From contig NZ_JAMFMB010000021.1 in assembly GCF_023502395.1 (NCBI RefSeq), positions 1-64,000 on the forward strand: DNA of 64,000 bases. The letters are read 5' to 3'. The notes below the pieces were generated by a model. It had not been told where the DNA came from, searched no databases, and saw only the letters and a list, made by a program, of their open reading frames with translations. Each line of letters opens with the position of its first letter. Within the stretch, counting starts at the first letter, position 1. Of this stretch, positions 9,579 through 19,770 are shown piece by piece. This stretch comes from Ruegeria spongiae. Lineage in GTDB: Bacteria > Pseudomonadota > Alphaproteobacteria > Rhodobacterales > Rhodobacteraceae. The position numbers and the translations under genes are program-made.

Positions 9579-10421
9579 TTACTGGCTCAGAAAATCTCGT
9601 ATAGCGGAAGAATACGCCTCCGGGTCCTGCAGGTTCGCGAAATGGCTCACGTCTTGCAGGGTCAGCAACGTGGCCCCCGGGATGGTGTCTGCTATCTTTT
9701 GGGCGTGATCCGACAAGATGGCCTCGTCATGCGCGCTTTGAACCACAAGCGTGGGCACGCTCACATCCGCCAGTGCCTCGAACCCGCCCGGCTTCTCGGT
9801 CCCCCACATCTCCACGACATCCGCGAGAAACGCATCGAACCCATCCGGAGTGGGTGACATGGCGGCATAATCTGCCGCCATCATGCCGACATAAGCGCCA
9901 AAAAGCTCATTGGATTCGACCGTTGGGTCGATCCCGTCCAGTGTCACATTTCCCGCATGGGCAAAATGGCTGGCCAGACGGTCCGGCGCTGAGGTCGAGA
10001 TTGCATATCCGATATTGGCACCATCGGACCAGCCCACCAGATGCACCTTGTCGACGCCTAACGTGTCGAGCAAAGCAAGATAGTCCTGTGCCAGAAGATC
10101 ATAGGAATAGGCGCTGCCGTCATTCGAGGACCGTCCGTGACCGCGCGTATCGGCGACGATAACGCGGTGATCCGTGGCCAGATCCGCGACCTGATCCGCC
10201 CAGATGTCACCATGCGCCAGCCCGCCATGGATCATCAGCACTGGTGTTCCCTCTGCTGCGCCATAAAGCGCGTAATACATATCGATCCCGTTCACCTGTG
10301 CCGTGCCGGACTTGACGGCTTCGGGCATCGACGGCGCGGGCGGAAGGGTCAGCCATTTGTCGTCTGCGCAGGCCGCACCTGCTGACAACACGAAGCTCAT
10401 GAGGGTCAGTATCTTGAACAT
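9579..10421 (-). CDS. Secreted alpha/beta hydrolase
   Basis: A 280-residue alpha/beta-fold hydrolase with an N-terminal signal peptide (MFKILTLMSFVLSAGAACA). The oxyanion HGG region is MIHGGLAHG, the catalytic lid pattern is DTRGHGRSS and the nucleophile elbow is GWSDGA, where aspartate rather than serine sits at the usual nucleophile position. The late acid lies in VVQSAHDEAI and the histidine in DVSHFANL. The Asp nucleophile (G-W-S-D-G) is unusual for esterases and worth noting. The start at 10421 is chosen for the signal peptide and GGAAAGGAC upstream. Confidence 0.75.
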   Translation of the reverse strand: MFKILTLMSFVLSAGAACADDKWLTLPPAPSMPEAVKSGTAQVNGIDMYYALYGAAEGTPVLMIHGGLAHGDIWADQVADLATDHRVIVADTRGHGRSSNDGSAYSYDLLAQDYLALLDTLGVDKVHLVGWSDGANIGYAISTSAPDRLASHFAHAGNVTLDGIDPTVESNELFGAYVGMMAADYAAMSPTPDGFDAFLADVVEMWGTEKPGGFEALADVSVPTLVVQSAHDEAILSDHAQKIADTIPGATLLTLQDVSHFANLQDPEAYSSAIRDFLSQ

Positions 10422-10500
10422 CCCGGACCTGTCCTTTCCAACATGGTTGGATGCAAGTTTAGATGATCTGACTGGAAATCGCTCGGAAAATGCCAAGACG

Positions 10501-11913
10501 TTAGTTGAGGTCTTCAATCAAGCGGCCGTATTTGCGGGTCTGGGCGATGACGTCGCCGAAGGTTTTGAACCCGCGCGCCGTCAGCATCGGCAGCATCGCC
10601 ACCAGAACTTCTGCCGTGGCCTGCGCATCGCCCAAGGCGGTGTGCCGAAGGTTCTCGGGGATGGTCACGCCGAGACGGTCACATAGAGCGTCCAGAGTAT
10701 GGGTTTCGCTGGCCCCGAACAGCACCGCCGACAGCAGCACGGTATCCAGAATGGGATGATCCCATGTCACCCCCATCGTCTGGGCATCGCGGCGCAGAAA
10801 CGCCATGTCGAAGGGCGCGTTATGGGCCACGATCACCGCATCGCGGGTGAAATGGTGAAACTGCCGCCCGGCCTTGGCGATATCCGGCGCGCCGTAGACC
10901 ATCGCATCCGTCACCCGGTGCACACGGGTCGAGGCGGGTGGAATGGGCCTGCCGGGATCGACCAATGTGTCAAAGACCTCGCCTCTGACGAGCCGTCCGC
11001 GCAAGACACGCACCGCCCCGATCTGCACCACCGCGTCCTTGTGCGGCAGCAGGCCGGTGGTCTCGGTGTCGAAGACGACAAAACAAAGCTCCTCCAGACT
11101 GCGCGCCTCGATGGCCTGGTCGCCAGGCATCTCAAGCAATTCGAAATCGTAAACCAGCGGACGGGCCTCGTCCGGGGCGATCTGGGCCACGCTGTCGTCG
11201 AAGATCAGCAGGTACCCGGCTGTCGCGCCCAGCGGCCGCAGGCGCGTGGCATAGCTTTGCCTGCCATCCACGCTGGTGATCTGGGCGCTGACATCCTGCC
11301 CGGTCGTGTTCAGACGGGTATGGGCGGCCTCGACCTCGTCGCGGTTGAGATAGTCAAAGAGCAAGGCGTTCAGGCGCGGTGGCGCGGTCTGTGCCAGCAC
11401 CTCTGCGGCCTGTCCGTCATAGAGCACAATCTGATGGGCAGGGCTGACCAGAACCATCGCGACCGGGATGTCTGTCAGCAGTGCGGTCAGGCGGTCTTTT
11501 TCGGCCGTCAGCCGCGCCGTTTCAGACGCGACGGCCTGGGCGGTCGCCAGGGTCTGTTCGGACACCCGCCCCGCAAGCCCGGCAGCGGCGGGCGCCAGAT
11601 CGCCCAGATAGCGCGCGGCGTCGGTGTCGATCTCCAGATCAAGCGCCGCCGCCTCGCGGGCACGCAGAGACGCGGCGAGCCGTTCGATCGGCTTGGCGAC
11701 GTTTTCGTCAAACAGCAGCCAGACACCGGCGATCAGCGCCATCAGGCCGAACCCGATGATCAGCCCCGAAAAGACGAAAGCCTGCGGCACACCCGAGGCA
11801 GGTGCCCGCGCCGACCCCAGATAAAGCGCCACGCCGGTCAGGCCCAACCCGCCCACTGCCAGCAGGCAGAAGAACAGAAAGACGCGCAAACGCAGGCTGA
11901 GACCGCGCAGCAT
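10501..11913 (-). CDS. Membrane-anchored signal-sensor-like 3'-5' exonuclease (DEDDh)
   Basis: A 470-residue protein with two N-terminal membrane spans (about 10-33 and 46-68), a HAMP-like/coiled segment (about 70-145), a PAS-like region (about 145-245) and a C-terminal DnaQ-like exonuclease domain (about 275-450). All DEDDh residues are visible: D282 and E284 in FDTETTG, D369 in HNAPFDMAFL, H424 and D429 in HTALGDAQAT. The architecture resembles a sensor kinase whose kinase part is replaced by an exonuclease. The start is the ATG at 11913, overlapping the stop of the upstream gene (TAATG). It ends a minus-strand block with the DUF294 and symporter genes. Confidence 0.85.
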   Translation of the reverse strand: MLRGLSLRLRVFLFFCLLAVGGLGLTGVALYLGSARAPASGVPQAFVFSGLIIGFGLMALIAGVWLLFDENVAKPIERLAASLRAREAAALDLEIDTDAARYLGDLAPAAAGLAGRVSEQTLATAQAVASETARLTAEKDRLTALLTDIPVAMVLVSPAHQIVLYDGQAAEVLAQTAPPRLNALLFDYLNRDEVEAAHTRLNTTGQDVSAQITSVDGRQSYATRLRPLGATAGYLLIFDDSVAQIAPDEARPLVYDFELLEMPGDQAIEARSLEELCFVVFDTETTGLLPHKDAVVQIGAVRVLRGRLVRGEVFDTLVDPGRPIPPASTRVHRVTDAMVYGAPDIAKAGRQFHHFTRDAVIVAHNAPFDMAFLRRDAQTMGVTWDHPILDTVLLSAVLFGASETHTLDALCDRLGVTIPENLRHTALGDAQATAEVLVAMLPMLTARGFKTFGDVIAQTRKYGRLIEDLN

Positions 11914-12434
11914 TACGCATCCCCGCACAGCGCCCGGATTACCGCGTCGCCGTCATCGGTGGCGACCCAGTCGGCATCCAGCACCGTGCCGTCGTCTCCG
12001 AATTCTGCGCCATCCACCAGATTGGCGCGCCGAGATCCGGCGCAATCCACCAGCACCGGCAATTTCGACACCGCAGCCCAGCGGCCAAAGAAATAGAGAT
12101 CGGCCAAACGTTGGTCAGGCAGGGTCGGGTTGGTCCGGACCGAGGCGCGATCCAGCGCCGCGAACCGGTCGACATATGGCGCGACATAGGTCCAGGGCCG
12201 GTAGATCGCGCGGCTGTCCACGGTCTCGATCACCTCGACATCCTCGGGCAGTGCGGCGGCGGTGCGGGTGTACCAGCTGTATTCGCTGGAAATGGTGACC
12301 GCGATCATCGCAAGACCGGCCCCGACCGGGGCCAGCCATTTGGGCAGCCGCCCGGCAAGCATTCGGTTCAGCAGCATCACCAGACCCGCCGTGGCGATCC
12401 CTGCAAACACCGTAGCGATCAGTTCCAGAAACAT
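11913..12434 (-). CDS. Hypothetical membrane protein between DUF294 and exonuclease genes
   Basis: A 173-residue protein with two N-terminal hydrophobic spans (about 2-22 and 34-50) and a hydrophilic remainder with the motif VDSRAIYRPWTYVAPYVDRF and a late VLVDCAGSRRANLVDG. I do not recognise the family. Its stop overlaps the exonuclease start (TAATG) and it begins 33 bases after the DUF294 gene, so it is very likely co-expressed with both. Confidence 0.75.
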   Translation of the reverse strand: MFLELIATVFAGIATAGLVMLLNRMLAGRLPKWLAPVGAGLAMIAVTISSEYSWYTRTAAALPEDVEVIETVDSRAIYRPWTYVAPYVDRFAALDRASVRTNPTLPDQRLADLYFFGRWAAVSKLPVLVDCAGSRRANLVDGAEFGDDGTVLDADWVATDDGDAVIRALCGDA

Positions 12435-12467
12435 CTCTTTCCTCCCATGCGGGTCTGTTGCTGCGCC

Positions 12468-14291
12468 TTAGCCCAGCATGCCCTTACCGTGCCCGATAGC
12501 CGATTGCATTGTCTTTACCACGACAAAGGCGTCGCGCAGATGGCTCCGCTCGAAATCCGACAGGCTGCCCGGCGCCATGAAGTTATCCGGTGTGAGGCCT
12601 GCCTTGACCTGTGCGGCCTGATGTTCCAGCCGCGCATCGGCGATCAGATCATAGGCGTCGCGCAGATCGCGTGCGCCGGACGGGCTGAGCGCGCCGCTGC
12701 GTTCGGCACCGTCCAGACGGGCGAGGGTGTTCACAGGCGTCAGTTGCGCGCGCAAGGCATAAAGCCGACCCAGATCGACCACCGGCACGACGCCATTATG
12801 TTTCATGTCCACCCTATCGCGATGCTCGCCCGAGCGGATGGTGGCCAGACCGCGAAACAGGCCCAGCGGCACGCTATGCTTGAGCGCGTTGGATATCATG
12901 TGGGCCACAAAGATCGAATTGGCGCTGGCGGCTTTCAGTGTCTCGGTCTGGATATTGCGGAACAGATCGAAATCTCCGCCGATGGGGCGCAGGTCGAACA
13001 TGACGCTGGCCAGCATCTGCGCCTCGGGGTTGGGTTTGGCGATCCAGCTTGCGAAATAGTCGCGCCACACCCGCACCGGCTGGCACCAGCGTGGGTTCGT
13101 TGCCATCATCTCACCGGGGCAATAGACATAGCCGCAGGTGTTGAGACCATCGCAGACGATCTTCGCCAGCGCCGCGAAATATGCCATATCCGCCTCGGTC
13201 ACGCTGTCATCCAGCATCAGGCAATTGTCCTGATCGCTGACCCCGGTCTGCTCCTGCCGCCCTTGTGAGCCGCAGGCCAGCCACAGATAAGGCAGCGGCG
13301 GCGGTCCGAGTTTTGCTTCGGCCAGCGCCAGCAAACGCCGGGTTGCGGTGTCGGCAATGTCGGTGATCAGGCGGGTCACCACATCATGGCGGTTGCCACC
13401 CGCCACCAGCTGCACCAGCAGGCGGGGGATCTCGGCGGTGACCTGTGCCATGTCCTGCGCTGTTTCGGAGCGGGCCAGCGCCGCCACAAGTTCTGCCGAA
13501 CTCACCGCCTGAAAACGGGTCAGGTCGGTTTGGGTGACGATGCCCTCCAGACGCCCGGCCTCGGTGATCGGGACATGGCCGATGCGATGTTCCATCATCA
13601 TATGCAACACGTCCGAACCGATGGCAGAGGGCGGCAGGGTCATTGGCGCGGCGGTCATGACATCGCCCACGGGGGTGGTGCCGGGCAGGGCTTCTCCCAC
13701 CACCTTGCCGGACAGGTCGCGGATCGTGACGATCCCGCGCAACAGCCCGTCCTGAACCACGCAGAGCGACGAGATGCGCCGGTCGCGCATCATCTTTGCC
13801 GCCTGCTGCACCGGCATATCGGGCGCGCAGACTGCCGGATCACGGGCCATCAGCGTTTCGACCGGGCTGGTGGCGAGGTCGTTTTGCGCCACACGAGTCT
13901 GGCGCGCGCGGTTGAAGAACCGCGCAACCCCGGCATGGTCGCGCTGCAGGGTTGCGATCAGCGTTGCGGGCAGTATCAGAAGGGTGGTCCGCCCGGTGGC
14001 CGTCGCGCTTGTCGCGGCCTTGCCGTCGCGCAGCAATCCGCGCTCGCCGAAACTGTTGCGCAGTCCCAGATGCGAGACCACTGCGCCATTCTCATCGACC
14101 ACCTCGACCGATCCTTCATGGATCACGAAAAGGCCGGGCAGAGTGTCGCCGAACCGATAGATCGTCTCTTGCGCCGCACAAAGGCGCGTTTCGGCCTGCG
14201 CGGCGATGTCGCTCAGCGTCTCAGGTTGCAGCGCGTCATAGGGATGCACCGATCTGAGGAAGCGAATGATCTGATCTTGGTTAAGGGACAT
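12468..14291 (-). CDS. cNMP-binding / CBS-pair / DUF294 nucleotidyltransferase-like protein
   Basis: A 607-residue cytoplasmic protein. A cyclic-nucleotide-binding-like domain (about 10-125) contains GLFVIHEGSVEVVDENG and SFGERGLL. Two CBS repeats follow (about 143-260; MARDP, VVQDGLLRGIVTIRDL, VMTAAP, GIVTQTDL). A nucleotidyltransferase core has GSQGRQE at 341-347 and DQDN at 353-356, then the DUF294 C-terminal domain. This GlnD-like core and two sensor domains suggest a regulatory enzyme. It sits just downstream of the DUF4212/sodium symporter pair, a pairing I know from other proteobacteria; the biochemical role is not established. Confidence 0.88.
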   Translation of the reverse strand: MSLNQDQIIRFLRSVHPYDALQPETLSDIAAQAETRLCAAQETIYRFGDTLPGLFVIHEGSVEVVDENGAVVSHLGLRNSFGERGLLRDGKAATSATATGRTTLLILPATLIATLQRDHAGVARFFNRARQTRVAQNDLATSPVETLMARDPAVCAPDMPVQQAAKMMRDRRISSLCVVQDGLLRGIVTIRDLSGKVVGEALPGTTPVGDVMTAAPMTLPPSAIGSDVLHMMMEHRIGHVPITEAGRLEGIVTQTDLTRFQAVSSAELVAALARSETAQDMAQVTAEIPRLLVQLVAGGNRHDVVTRLITDIADTATRRLLALAEAKLGPPPLPYLWLACGSQGRQEQTGVSDQDNCLMLDDSVTEADMAYFAALAKIVCDGLNTCGYVYCPGEMMATNPRWCQPVRVWRDYFASWIAKPNPEAQMLASVMFDLRPIGGDFDLFRNIQTETLKAASANSIFVAHMISNALKHSVPLGLFRGLATIRSGEHRDRVDMKHNGVVPVVDLGRLYALRAQLTPVNTLARLDGAERSGALSPSGARDLRDAYDLIADARLEHQAAQVKAGLTPDNFMAPGSLSDFERSHLRDAFVVVKTMQSAIGHGKGMLG

Positions 14292-14401: not shown

Positions 14402-16192
14402 TCAGTGATCCGCCGTCGCGGCCGCTGCCCCACGGGGGATGCGCACGCTTTCGACCAGATCCTTGATCTCTTGCGGGGTCTCCTTGGTCATGCCGGCAAC
14501 CACATAGGCCACGCCGAAGTTGACCATGGCACCGATGGCACCGAAGGAGGTCGACTTGATCGGACCCAGCAGCGGATCGGCATCGGTGAAGGAGTTGGTG
14601 CCCGGAATGAACAGCCAGCCCTTGTGCAGGAAGATGTAGACCAGCGTCACGGTCAGACCCGCAAGCATACCCGCAACTGCACCGACATTGTTGATCTTCT
14701 TCGAGAAGATACCCATCATCAGCGCCGGGAAGATCGAGGCAGCCGCCAGACCAAAGGCCAGGGCAACCGTCTGTGCCGCAAAGCCTGGAGGGTTGAGACC
14801 CAGATAGGTTGCCACCACGATGGCCACGGCCATTGCGATCCGCGCCGCCAGAAGCTCACCTTTTTCGCTGATTGCCGGGTTGATAGAACCCTTGATCAGG
14901 TCGTGGGACACCGCCGACGAGATCGCCAGCAGCAAACCGGCAGCAGTGGACAGAGCAGCCGCCAGACCACCAGCCGCGACCAGACCGATCACCCAACCCG
15001 GCAGGTTGGCGATCTCGGGGTTGGCCAGAACCAGGATGTCGCGGTTGAACTTGGTCAACTCGTTGCCGACCCAGCCCTTTTCAGCGGCCAGTTCCTGCAT
15101 CTTTTCCGACTTGTCGTTGTAGTACTGGATCTTGCCGTCGCCGTTCTTGTCTTCCCAGTCCAGCAGACCGGTTTTCTGCCACGTGGCCATCCAGTCATAG
15201 CGCGCATCATTGTCGATCTGCTCGACCTTCACGGCGCCACCGTCGATGCCACCATTGGGCCACATCATGTCGGTGATGTTCAGACGCGCCATGGCACCCA
15301 CAGCCGGGGCCGTCAGATAGAGCAGCGCAATGAACACCAGCGCCCAGCCAGCCGACCAGCGGGCATCGGACACTTTCGGCACGGTGAAGAAGCGCATGAT
15401 CACATGCGGCAGTCCAGCGGTACCGATCATCAGCGACAGGGTGAACAGCACCATGTTCAGTGTGTTCGAGTGGTGTGCGGTGTATTCCGCGAATCCCAAC
15501 TCGGAGACAATCGCATCCAGCTTGGTCAGCAGCGGCTCGGTGGTGCCAGCGGCGTCGCCAAACAGGCCAAGCGCCGGAACCGGATTGCCAGTCAGCTGCA
15601 GCGAGATGAAGATCGCCGGGATCGTGTAGGCGGTGATCAGCACGCAATATTGTGCCACCTGCGTATAGGTCACGCCTTTCATGCCGCCAAAGACCGCATA
15701 AGCGAACACCACGCCCGCGCCGATCAGCAGACCGGTGGTGTTGCTGACTTCGAGGAAGCGACCAAAGGCCACGCCGACACCGGTCATCTGACCGATCACA
15801 TAAGTGACCGAGGCCACGATCAGGCAGATCACGGCCACCACGCGCGCGGTCGGGCTGTAGAACCGGTCGCCGATGAACTCGGAGACGGTGAACTTGCCGA
15901 ACTTGCGCAGATAGGGCGCCAGCAGCAGGGCCAGCAGAACATAGCCGCCGGTCCAGCCCATCAGGAAGGACGAGTTGTCATAGCCGGTAAAGGCAATCAG
16001 ACCCGCCATCGAGATGAAGCTGGCCGCCGACATCCAGTCCGCCGCCGTGGCCATCCCGTTGGTGACCGGGTGCACGCCGCGCCCGGCGGCATAAAATTCA
16101 GATGTGGACCCCGCACGGGCCCAGATCGCGATGCCGATATAGACCGCGAAAGACGCGCCTACAAACAGCAGGTTGATGGTAAACTGATCCAT
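14402..16192 (-). CDS. Sodium:solute symporter large subunit (VC_2705/ActP-like)
   Basis: A 596-residue multi-span SSS-family transporter of the type that works with a DUF4212 small subunit (TIGR03648-like). Family features include GRGVHPVTNGMATAADWMSA (38-57), many membrane spans, and GLAAALSTAAGLLLAISSA (409-427). An extramembrane loop at about 303-398 carries an EF-hand-like sequence DKNGDGKIQYYN at 348-359. The gene follows the DUF4212 gene by 5 bases, its ribosome site lying in that gene's end. Acetate or another short organic acid is the likely substrate because acs is nearby; ActP proper is the alternative name. Confidence 0.88.
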   Translation of the reverse strand: MDQFTINLLFVGASFAVYIGIAIWARAGSTSEFYAAGRGVHPVTNGMATAADWMSAASFISMAGLIAFTGYDNSSFLMGWTGGYVLLALLLAPYLRKFGKFTVSEFIGDRFYSPTARVVAVICLIVASVTYVIGQMTGVGVAFGRFLEVSNTTGLLIGAGVVFAYAVFGGMKGVTYTQVAQYCVLITAYTIPAIFISLQLTGNPVPALGLFGDAAGTTEPLLTKLDAIVSELGFAEYTAHHSNTLNMVLFTLSLMIGTAGLPHVIMRFFTVPKVSDARWSAGWALVFIALLYLTAPAVGAMARLNITDMMWPNGGIDGGAVKVEQIDNDARYDWMATWQKTGLLDWEDKNGDGKIQYYNDKSEKMQELAAEKGWVGNELTKFNRDILVLANPEIANLPGWVIGLVAAGGLAAALSTAAGLLLAISSAVSHDLIKGSINPAISEKGELLAARIAMAVAIVVATYLGLNPPGFAAQTVALAFGLAAASIFPALMMGIFSKKINNVGAVAGMLAGLTVTLVYIFLHKGWLFIPGTNSFTDADPLLGPIKSTSFGAIGAMVNFGVAYVVAGMTKETPQEIKDLVESVRIPRGAAAATADH

Positions 16193-16197
16193 GACGC

Positions 16198-16482
16198 TTA
16201 CTCCTCATCCACGCCATATTCGGCGTCGAGTTTGTTCATCCGCCAGGCGTAGAAAAAGATCAGGCCCAGAAAGACCAGGATCGAGCCTTGCTGCGCGAAC
16301 CAGAAGCCCAGATCGGTGCCGCCGACGCTGATGCCCGAGAGCATCGGGCGCAGCAGAATGCCGAAACCGAACGAGACAAGAGCCCAGATCACCAGGCTCA
16401 CAAGAATGATCCGCACATTCGCCTGCCAATAGCCTTTGTCAGCCTCGGCAACTTGCGCGGAGTTTGTGGTTTGATCCGCCAT
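16198..16482 (-). CDS. DUF4212 sodium symporter small subunit
   Basis: A 94-residue protein with two membrane spans (about 23-45 and 61-81) and the family motif YWQANVRIILVSLVIWALVS (TIGR03647-like). It partners the large symporter subunit that follows 5 bases later. The ATG at 16482 is preced by AGGAGGACC and is preferred over a longer frame reaching 16557. First gene of this unit, so a promoter should lie in 16490-16650. Confidence 0.88.
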   Translation of the reverse strand: MADQTTNSAQVAEADKGYWQANVRIILVSLVIWALVSFGFGILLRPMLSGISVGGTDLGFWFAQQGSILVFLGLIFFYAWRMNKLDAEYGVDEE

Positions 16483-16654
16483 CGCGGGTCCTCCTTGCTT
16501 CCTCCTGATTTGCCCGGGGATCGGGCAAACCTCCTCCGTTTGCCTGCGCCGCTTCACTGGCTACAGGCATGACGTCACCGGTCCGCCAAAGCGGTCAGTC
16601 CGGATCTTTCATCAGGGGGTGGGGCAGGGGTTGACCCGGCCCCGGTCTTCTCGC

Positions 16655-17337: not shown

Positions 17338-17338
<1 letters not shown>
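16655..17338 (-). CDS. adk: Adenylate kinase with zinc-type LID
   Basis: A 227-residue kinase converting AMP + ATP to two ADP. The P-loop is GPPGAGKGT (about 16-24). NMP-binding LSTGDLLRAAV is near 38-48 and DGFPRT near 93-98. The LID holds two CxxC pairs, C139/C142 and C159/C162, which normally bind a structural zinc. Its ATG overlaps the acs stop (TGATG), so it is translated right after acetyl-CoA synthetase, which releases AMP. A second, ribosomal-protein-linked adk is usual in this group but is not in the window. Confidence 0.93.
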
Positions 17339-19302
<1,964 letters not shown>

Positions 19303-19770
19303 CTGAGGCTCCTCCCAATGACTGTTTTCGTTGATCGCATTTTTCACCCAATATGCAGGGGATTGTCGATCATGTTCCTTCCTTGCCGAAAGTATAGGCG
19401 AGTTTGAAAATATTAAAATAAAGTCATGAAAATTAACGATTTGTCTGTAAAGAATTTTTACTGATCGGTGATCAAGTGTAAATGAATTGAAAACAATGTC
19501 CGCAAGGCCTCTGAAATGATAAGAAAATTGCTGTCAACATCGGCACGGGTCCACTGCGTGCCTTTGGGTGCGCATTGGCGTGATTCTGGTGTTGCCGTGC
19601 AGAAATCGGGCGATACGAGTCGGAAGTGCGGGGGATGGGGGCTTGTAAATGGCCCTGCTCGACCAGTTCCGAGTCGCGCATATCCCGGGCCTTGGCAGCG
19701 GCGCGATGTCGACCTAGTCTGCCCTCAAAGACATGTCCGCTGCAGCAGTGGACCGACCGGGAGGGAACTG
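19303..19770. promoter_or_regulatory. Divergent intergenic region between acs and the TRAP binding-protein gene
   Basis: A 468-base stretch with no convincing gene. The acs-proximal part (about 19380-19490) is very AT-rich for this genome and contains TATACT on the minus strand (19391-19396), a possible acs -10 element. An imperfect dyad TGATC-GGT-GATCA lies at 19462-19474. The rest (19500-19760) holds an open frame joined to the TRAP gene, but it lacks coding character and the signal peptide only starts at 19771. Confidence 0.55.

Follow-up and report, generated by a model that had tools for sequence, protein, structure and literature searches.

A membrane exonuclease on a predicted sensor-kinase chassis, with a DUF294 partner and a candidate ancestral receiver input, in a symporter operon of Ruegeria spongiae

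Introduction

What is an exonuclease doing at the place where a sensor histidine kinase would carry its kinase body? The question is raised by a locus of Ruegeria spongiae (assembly GCF_023502395.1, contig NZ_JAMFMB010000021.1, positions 1 to 64,000; this whole stretch of 64,000 nucleotides is referred to as the window), in which a predicted membrane exonuclease is encoded together with a small membrane protein, a DUF294 protein and a two-subunit sodium symporter. An earlier note, made from the letters of the sequence, had proposed that these genes form an undescribed signalling system in which a nucleotide messenger or RNA is degraded. Our analysis points to a monocarboxylate (acetate/pyruvate class) signalling module with a membrane-bound 3'-5' exonuclease as its output, which ancestrally would have been gated by a receiver and would have lost this input in the lineage of the window; we give this reading about an even chance of being correct.

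Domain organization of the exonuclease

The two open reading frames (ORFs) named in the earlier note are present on the minus strand (10501-11928 and 12468-14291), and the residue numbers of the exonuclease refer to the first of them, read as 475 amino acids from GTG 11928. The TAATG junction noticed at that time lies at 11915-11911 and couples the gene of the small membrane protein to that of the exonuclease, so that the start is placed at ATG 11913, giving a protein of 470 amino acids. RNase_T was the only Pfam family above the cut-off (residues 284-442, E 7.3e-34). The AlphaFold2 (AF2) model, built on a 35-sequence alignment and with a mean pLDDT of 84.6, places the nuclease (residues 282-450) behind two helices (12-45 and 47-94), a coil (111-152) and an alpha/beta domain of PAS-like fold (157-243). 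On the Kyte-Doolittle scale, hydrophobic stretches of 19 residues scoring above 1.6 occur only in the two helices (starting at residues 4-22 and 46-57), in agreement with the two membrane spans proposed before, which are thus predicted by both model and hydropathy. Of the suggested HAMP/coil and PAS-like part, the coil and the PAS-like fold were recovered; PAS gave no Pfam match in the window protein and is assigned from the AF2 model and from relatives, among them L052 (PAS_4 E 1.6e-9). HAMP was dropped, as it had no Pfam match in the window exonuclease; it is found in 4/57 distant members.

The nuclease is complete, as had been read from the sequence. Of 129 aligned rows, that of the window included, 128 retain all five DEDDh residues and the remaining one has a gap; the residues are also invariant in A2. 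The best Foldseek matches of the window protein are PolC/DnaQ exonucleases. Sequence and structure prediction together support an exonuclease built on the chassis of a sensor histidine kinase, with two predicted helices, a coil and a PAS-like domain. The window protein itself, having neither DHp nor HATPase, is not a sensor histidine kinase nor a DivL-like pseudokinase: at the junction between PAS-like domain and nuclease the alignment leaves it 3 DHp residues and 0 CA residues.

A long form with a dead kinase body

The exonuclease is present in 137 of 295 genomes of the window's family. Family and class are used here as the genome tool assigns them. An order-level sample of 61 genomes, all of which belong to that family, contained 36 with the exonuclease. 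In 21 of them it has the window-like form; in the other 15 it is longer, its N-terminal part and nuclease being set apart by about 200 residues that comprise a DHp hairpin and an alpha/beta domain resembling CA. Since relatives carry a kinase body at this very place, the earlier statement that the nuclease stands where a kinase is expected was literally right. The AF2 model of one long form (L052, 684 amino acids; mean pLDDT 87.8, pTM 0.75) contains the PAS domain, DHp hairpin, CA-like domain and nuclease. By Foldseek it matched a WalK model (E 4e-15), 4i5s (3.6e-12), DivL (2.4e-7) and PolC/DnaQ, with further kinase matches to LOV-HK, NifL and ThkA-TrrA. The VIA-align rows cover the nuclease only (residues 478-674), and the kinase part is assigned from Foldseek and the AF2 topology.

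A histidine was found at the H-box position in 0/72 full forms of a first set and 0/72 of a second, which shares 6 with the first; the position is Asp or Glu in 58/72 and 56/72, respectively. The N-box Asn, with the register set by alignment, occurs in 4/72 and 1/72. A working kinase in the fused family was considered and rejected: HisKA was matched in 3/57 named members (best E 1.1e-4) and HATPase_c in 0/57 at E 0.01, and the H-box histidine is absent. AF2 and Foldseek of L052, together with the alignment, therefore describe the long form as a histidine-kinase fold without phospho-histidine, as in DivL-like pseudokinases. Judged by the aligned full forms, none of which has a phospho-histidine, the kinase body is dead. 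As a separate observation, the Asp/Glu in place of the lost phospho-histidine may mimic its charged state.

The long form is widely distributed. In a phylum-level sample, 45 of 398 genomes had frames of at least 630 residues at E 1.2e-43 or better, and 37 of these 45 lie outside the window's family. Among the best 80 of 470 matches in a scan of genome contigs (the named loci below), holders included Halomonas, Vreelandella, Billgrantia, Marinobacterium, Ectothiorhodospira, Rhodobacter capsulatus DSM 1710, Rhodovulum, Gemmobacter, Paracoccus, Ramlibacter, Hydrogenophaga, Azoarcus and a Pseudomonas sp., as well as metagenome-assembled genomes with the unchecked labels Magnetococcales, Desulfuromonadales, Acidobacteriota, Nitrospirota and Caldilineaceae. 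Within the window's class, four loci (L028, L030, L036 and L038) encode exonucleases of 438-483 amino acids beside DUF294, with an N-terminal membrane/PAS-like part and without the kinase body; these are possibly further independent losses, and L029 of the same listing retains the body.

A stand-alone receiver gene accompanies the intact DHp hairpin

Directly upstream of most long forms we found a gene for a stand-alone receiver (REC), which has a 4-base start/stop overlap with the exonuclease gene in seven loci (L120, L122, L125, L131, L132, L133 and L144). The receiver retains Asp57 and Lys109 in 68 of 69 cases. In one locus (L056, 6600-6926), the receiver is unlike that of its neighbours despite standing at the same place before a long exonuclease, and is perhaps a replacement.

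The linkage was scored in 111 family loci, namely the window, 30 loci of the order-level sample and another 80 drawn from the 137 exonuclease-bearing genomes of the family. Those 80 comprise the frames of at least 600 residues not sampled before plus 20 short ones, and hence the counts are not prevalences. A DHp was called intact or eroded by a line at 56 of 62 reference positions, the nearest values being 51 and 56, and a receiver was called at 20 bits. A receiver lies directly upstream of 52 of 54 forms with intact DHp (the exceptions are L197 and L217), of none of the 10 with eroded DHp and of none of the 47 from which the body is deleted, the window's among them. Outside the family it is present in 17 of 18 loci, all with intact DHp (exception L118). 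In 20 later loci, for which the cut-offs were fixed beforehand (5 leftover long family loci and 15 outside loci partly seen already), it was found in 14/15 intact and 0/5 eroded cases: 2/2 and 0/3 in the family, 12/13 and 0/2 outside it. The receiver of L332, at 16.2 bits, was scored as a miss. Two of the outside loci (L329 and L331, in G394 and G300) encode forms of 635 amino acids which keep the CA domain, retain only 4 DHp residues and have no upstream receiver; they are a further joint absence of DHp and receiver, outside the family.

Among the named loci, the full forms include 50 with a receiver, 13 without and 3 with the upstream sequence cut. One of the 13 (L247) has a receiver directly downstream, and the receiver of L299 is the end of a 996-residue frame. 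Forms that are not full had it in 0/12 cases with upstream sequence, and in 2 more the upstream sequence is cut; one of the 12 (L245) is a frame-broken full form with a receiver upstream, and does not run counter to the pattern.

A quick tree of 129 rows, built with the kinase columns left out and without the 20 later loci, implies at least 6 changes in DHp, 9 in REC and 3 in CA. As the receiver can be absent while DHp is intact and an eroded DHp was never seen with a receiver, the data suit an order in which the receiver was lost first, DHp then eroded and the body was finally deleted; this order would be an interpretation of the sequences for which the tests are too small to reach significance. 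The linkage could also be the relic of a gene fusion that no longer signals, the nuclease being tuned by PAS/membrane signals or by DUF294 only. Erosion or loss of the body in several lineages that keep the operon would fit such a relic, which we nevertheless consider decidedly unlikely, given that several phyla have retained a dead kinase body along with a phosphorylatable receiver and that the forms without an intact DHp are also those without the receiver.

Symporter-fused histidine kinases near the long form

A possible source of phosphate for the receiver is a histidine kinase fused to a sodium:solute symporter (SSS-HK), counted as a frame that matches the L128 protein in its transporter and its kinase part alike. 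Outside the window's family the exonuclease often adjoins such a kinase, which is encoded nearby in 14 of 19 long-form loci, in 29 of the 80 named loci and in 7 of the 15 outside loci of the later set. One of the 19 (L144) comes from the window's own family, as a distant member of it. Pfam identified HisKA and HATPase_c in all four SSS-HKs scanned, and SSF weakly in two. The genome of the window has an orthologue elsewhere, unlinked and with 45% identity to the L128 protein. A dedicated SSS-HK in this genome was considered and dropped: no frame of at least 100 amino acids in the surrounding 14.4 kb matches the receiver, and the kinase is near-universal in the family. Thus, the kinase-to-receiver step is one that we infer from linkage in other groups, with nothing specific to it in the window's family.

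Operon organization and the DUF294 protein

The minus strand carries, in order, acs, adk, DUF4212, the SSS symporter (TIGR03648), a cNMP-CBS-CBS-DUF294-DUF294_C protein, the 173-amino-acid membrane protein and the exonuclease (Table 1), with intergenic gaps of -4, 97, 5, 110, 33 and -1 bases. The two-subunit sodium symporter that the earlier note had placed first is the TIGR03648/TIGR03647 pair, both subunits of which pass the curated cut-offs (816.2 versus 320.75 bits and 111.5 versus 26.05 bits, respectively). The cNMP-binding, CBS and nucleotidyltransferase-like parts read in the preceding protein were likewise found by Pfam, with two CBS domains and both DUF294 and DUF294_C.

Table 1. Coordinates of the operon genes and of the exonuclease and DUF294 domains in the window
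Feature	Coordinates	Strand	Basis
Acetyl-CoA synthetase acs; 4-base overlap with adk	17338..19347	-	Pfam
Operon adenylate kinase adk; one of two in the genome	16655..17341	-	Pfam, genome search
Symporter small subunit (DUF4212/TIGR03647)	16198..16557	-	Pfam, NCBIfam
Sodium:solute symporter large subunit (TIGR03648)	14402..16192	-	E 1.1e-245
cNMP-CBS-CBS-DUF294-DUF294_C protein, 607 aa	12468..14291	-	Pfam
DUF294 nucleotidyltransferase domain, GSxGRxE...DxD motif	13023..13433	-	Pfam, motif reading
Small membrane protein, 173 aa	11913..12434	-	ORF, Pfam/NCBIfam scans, hydropathy
Membrane exonuclease gene, from ATG 11913	10501..11913	-	ORF, Pfam, AF2, TAATG junction
Two N-terminal helices, residues 12-94; predicted membrane spans and stalk	11647..11895	-	AF2, hydropathy
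Linker helix (coil), residues 111-152	11473..11598	-	AF2
PAS-like domain, residues 157-243	11200..11460	-	AF2; Pfam PAS matches in aligned relatives
Junction, about residues 247-256; site of the body of about 200 residues (DHp and CA) in relatives	11161..11190	-	Alignments
DEDDh exonuclease domain, residues 282-450; D287, E289, D374, H429, D434	10579..11085	-	Pfam, alignment, Foldseek

The neighbourhood survey proposed in the earlier note found this arrangement kept beyond close relatives, and hence not the restriction to close relatives that would have told against a system. In all 29 family loci that cover the operon, DUF4212, the SSS symporter, DUF294 and the small membrane protein are present, with acs in 28/29 and adk in 26/29. 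In the stretch examined, DUF294 is present in 110 of 111 family loci and a relative of the small membrane protein in 109 of 111, with or without the receiver. This protein had been described as an unknown two-span protein: no match was obtained to Pfam at E 1 or to NCBIfam at E 0.1, and hydropathy gives one clear span, the first and strong one, the second being weak. A second adk elsewhere in the genome makes the operon copy look dedicated to the AMP made by Acs, which it probably recycles. An alpha/beta hydrolase is encoded directly downstream of the exonuclease (9579-10517), its TTG start overlapping the end of the exonuclease gene; the likelier start is a later ATG, from which the protein would begin like a signal peptide. 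It was rejected as an operon member, as a relative is found in 0/29 family loci.

The nucleotidyltransferase (NTase) motif is kept in 109 of 110 family DUF294 members. The window protein has the domain set of the COG2905 type together with this motif. With what we take to be the phosphate-binding Arg motif of cyclic-nucleotide domains, applied as a regular expression, the key position, readable in 99 of 109 rows, holds R or K in 26 of the 99 and is K in the window. Because this position is not conserved, cAMP sensing was dropped as a firm claim.

Among 30 DUF294 loci kept in a class-level search (L022-L051, including that of the window) and scanned with custom hidden Markov models (HMMs), a DEDDh exonuclease is fused to DUF294 in 5, lies within the 1.5 kb flank in 19 and is found in neither place in 6, some of which are at contig ends. 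The fusion ORFs contain RNase_T, two CBS domains, DUF294 and DUF294_C in 6/6 cases by Pfam, and fusions are found in nine genomes of the window's class (six by Pfam and three by custom HMM). The RNase_T-CBS-DUF294 fusion is the strongest sign that both enzymes would work together, in the window as well. The exonuclease, DUF294 and the SSS symporter share one neighbourhood in the window and its relatives, as in a unit of the pp_0353/pp_0354 type, and the stretches examined around the named loci have DUF294 in 61, SSS in 38 and acs in 10 cases.

The exonuclease/DUF294 pair in Pseudomonas and alternative roles

Statements on the literature refer to passages of the cited papers. We take PA3232 and PA3233 to be homologues of the exonuclease/DUF294 pair. 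The PA3232-PA3235 cluster is upregulated on propionate (PMC9765439), and PP_0354 and PA3234 are given as regulated genes (PMC8402216, PMC5436829). In P. putida, pp_0354-pp_0353 form an operon under MxtR/ErdR, and their homologues stand beside actP-yjcH in P. aeruginosa PAO1 (PMC9927547). Pflu5625, a cAMP/CBS/NTase protein, is in the CrbS/R regulon and had no phenotype (PMC5715377). The pair was thus already published, and the claim of an undescribed system falls to that extent. As the earlier note had said, no described mechanism was found in the open papers searched; PMC9927547 goes no further than speculating on mRNA decay.

An exonuclease of DNA repair or salvage that merely travels in the operon, for which its DnaQ-like domain would speak, is highly improbable in view of the membrane/PAS chassis, the DUF294 fusion and the linkage to symporter genes; in addition, with added DNA the pp_0353 deletion of P. 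putida behaved no differently, and it grew slowly on pyruvate (PMC9927547). Degradation of a small nucleotide signal or nanoRNA (pGpG/pApA type) is very unlikely as well. A DEDDh fold in a signalling context would be in line with it, and the best matches are to PolC/DnaQ/DinG exonuclease domains and no cyclic-dinucleotide enzyme was found among the eight operon-region proteins scanned, both of which argue against it. Of the signalling system first proposed, the link of a sensor-like exonuclease with DUF294 and a symporter is supported; the degradation of a nucleotide messenger is not.

The pair could also act as writer and eraser: DUF294 would add nucleotides to a protein (symporter, receiver or Acs) or to an RNA end, the exonuclease would trim them, and the sensor inputs would set the balance. 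The single-ORF RNase_T-CBS-CBS-DUF294-DUF294_C fusions agree with this, as do the conserved NTase motif (109/110) and DEDDh residues (128/129). We know of no DEDDh enzyme that removes nucleotides from protein, which counts against it. DUF294_C is listed with the C-terminal domains of GlnD/GlnE (PMC3710099) and nucleotidylation was predicted for Pflu5625 (PMC5715377), both in its favour, whereas deletions of pp_0353 and pp_0354 in P. putida differ in phenotype (PMC9927547). On balance we regard such a pair as unlikely.

Proposed mechanism

In the receiver-gated signalling module that we prefer, the ancestral form would have had a symporter-fused, CrbS-like kinase phosphorylating the stand-alone receiver, which would dock on the pseudokinase DHp and thereby change nuclease activity. 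In the lineage of the window the receiver input would be lost, leaving control of the nuclease to membrane/PAS signals and the DUF294 protein. The CBS domains of the latter may respond to the AMP/ATP balance, which Acs and the operon adenylate kinase disturb. The most likely target would be RNA of carbon-uptake or central-carbon genes, so that the nuclease would re-set expression upon a change in acetate or pyruvate flux. Receiver docking, gating, RNA as the target and adenylate sensing by CBS are steps that we infer. The slow growth of the pp_0353 deletion on pyruvate (PMC9927547) speaks for the module. More tentatively, as a possibility somewhat short of even, the whole may be a two-component pathway with an exonuclease effector, running from SSS-HK through the receiver and the dead kinase to the attached nuclease and acting on the same target as DUF294, of which the window would be the streamlined end state after receiver and pseudokinase had disappeared jointly.

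Several points weigh against the preferred module. The Foldseek kinase matches of L052 have query TM-scores of 0.15-0.22 and root-mean-square deviations above 10 A, as the model is long and has its domains arranged differently. The DHp cut-off of 56 residues was set after the data table had been seen, and full forms without an upstream receiver exist (13/63 named, 3/72 in the first set). On the starred branches of the tree, 3 DHp-leading pairs are on average concordant in REC in 2.8 and opposite in none, and 5 REC-leading pairs are concordant in 2.5 and without a DHp change in 2.5; a sign test on independent losses was not significant and, with few losses, neither pairing can reach 0.05. The link to DUF294 and the symporter is not universal, since 9 of the 80 named loci have none of DUF294, SSS-HK, SSS or acs in the stretch examined (five of them, L258, L284, L288, L302 and L315, are labelled Desulfuromonadales, Desulfuromonas or Deltaproteobacteria). 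SSS-HK occurs in 88 of 100 family genomes, that of the window included, versus the exonuclease in 137/295, and is therefore no dedicated partner in the family. The nuclease domain is nearest to DNA exonucleases (PolC/DnaQ/DinG). Finally, the pp_0353 deletion had no acetate phenotype and the pp_0354 (DUF294) deletion had none at all (PMC9927547).

The architecture suggests that a nuclease is coupled directly to nutrient sensing. The output of two-component systems is mostly transcriptional; if the module is as proposed, a dead kinase with a nuclease and a receiver in several phyla would be a direct post-transcriptional (or nucleotidyl-editing) output of nutrient sensing, and the little-characterised DUF294/COG2905 family would gain a partner as well as a role in acetate/pyruvate use that can be tested. 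Intact, eroded and deleted bodies form a natural series for comparison by experiment, in which L329 and L331 (CA kept, DHp lost) offer a clean case for the part that the receiver needs.

Comparison with known systems

The exonuclease/DUF294 pair has been described before. Its sensor/pseudokinase/receiver layer appears to be new, within the open papers searched: no title or abstract opening among them combines receiver, pseudokinase and exonuclease, and a pseudokinase or receiver with an exonuclease is not mentioned in the passages of PMC9927547, PMC5715377, PMC9765439, PMC8402216 and PMC5436829. The published partners of symporter-fused kinases are DNA-binding regulators, of LuxR type (PMC9100948) or CbrB (PMC13022988), and the word exonuclease is absent from the passages of both papers.

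The closest known system is pp_0353/pp_0354 with the PAO1 homologues, targets of MxtR/ErdR (CrbS/CrbR), which share with the window an RNase_T exonuclease, a CBS/NTase protein and an acetate-type SSS symporter with its small subunit; there, however, the symporter is ActP/YjcH, and a membrane-PAS or pseudokinase form is not mentioned in the passages on them. With the DnaQ/PolC/DinG domains the window protein shares the fold and all catalytic residues, and is set apart from them by its membrane sensor chassis and operon. The symporter-fused kinases near the long form outside the window's family resemble the SLC5-STAC kinases CrbS, RpuS and CbrA, of which CrbS and RpuS serve acetate/pyruvate sensing; unlike in CrbS-type systems, the neighbour here is a receiver without an output domain. 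DivL has no phospho-histidine and binds a stand-alone receiver. Both DivL of Caulobacter and the kinase-like NifL, Foldseek matches of the long form, share its histidine-kinase fold, but the output of the long form is a covalently attached exonuclease, and in the window protein nothing is left of the kinase body.

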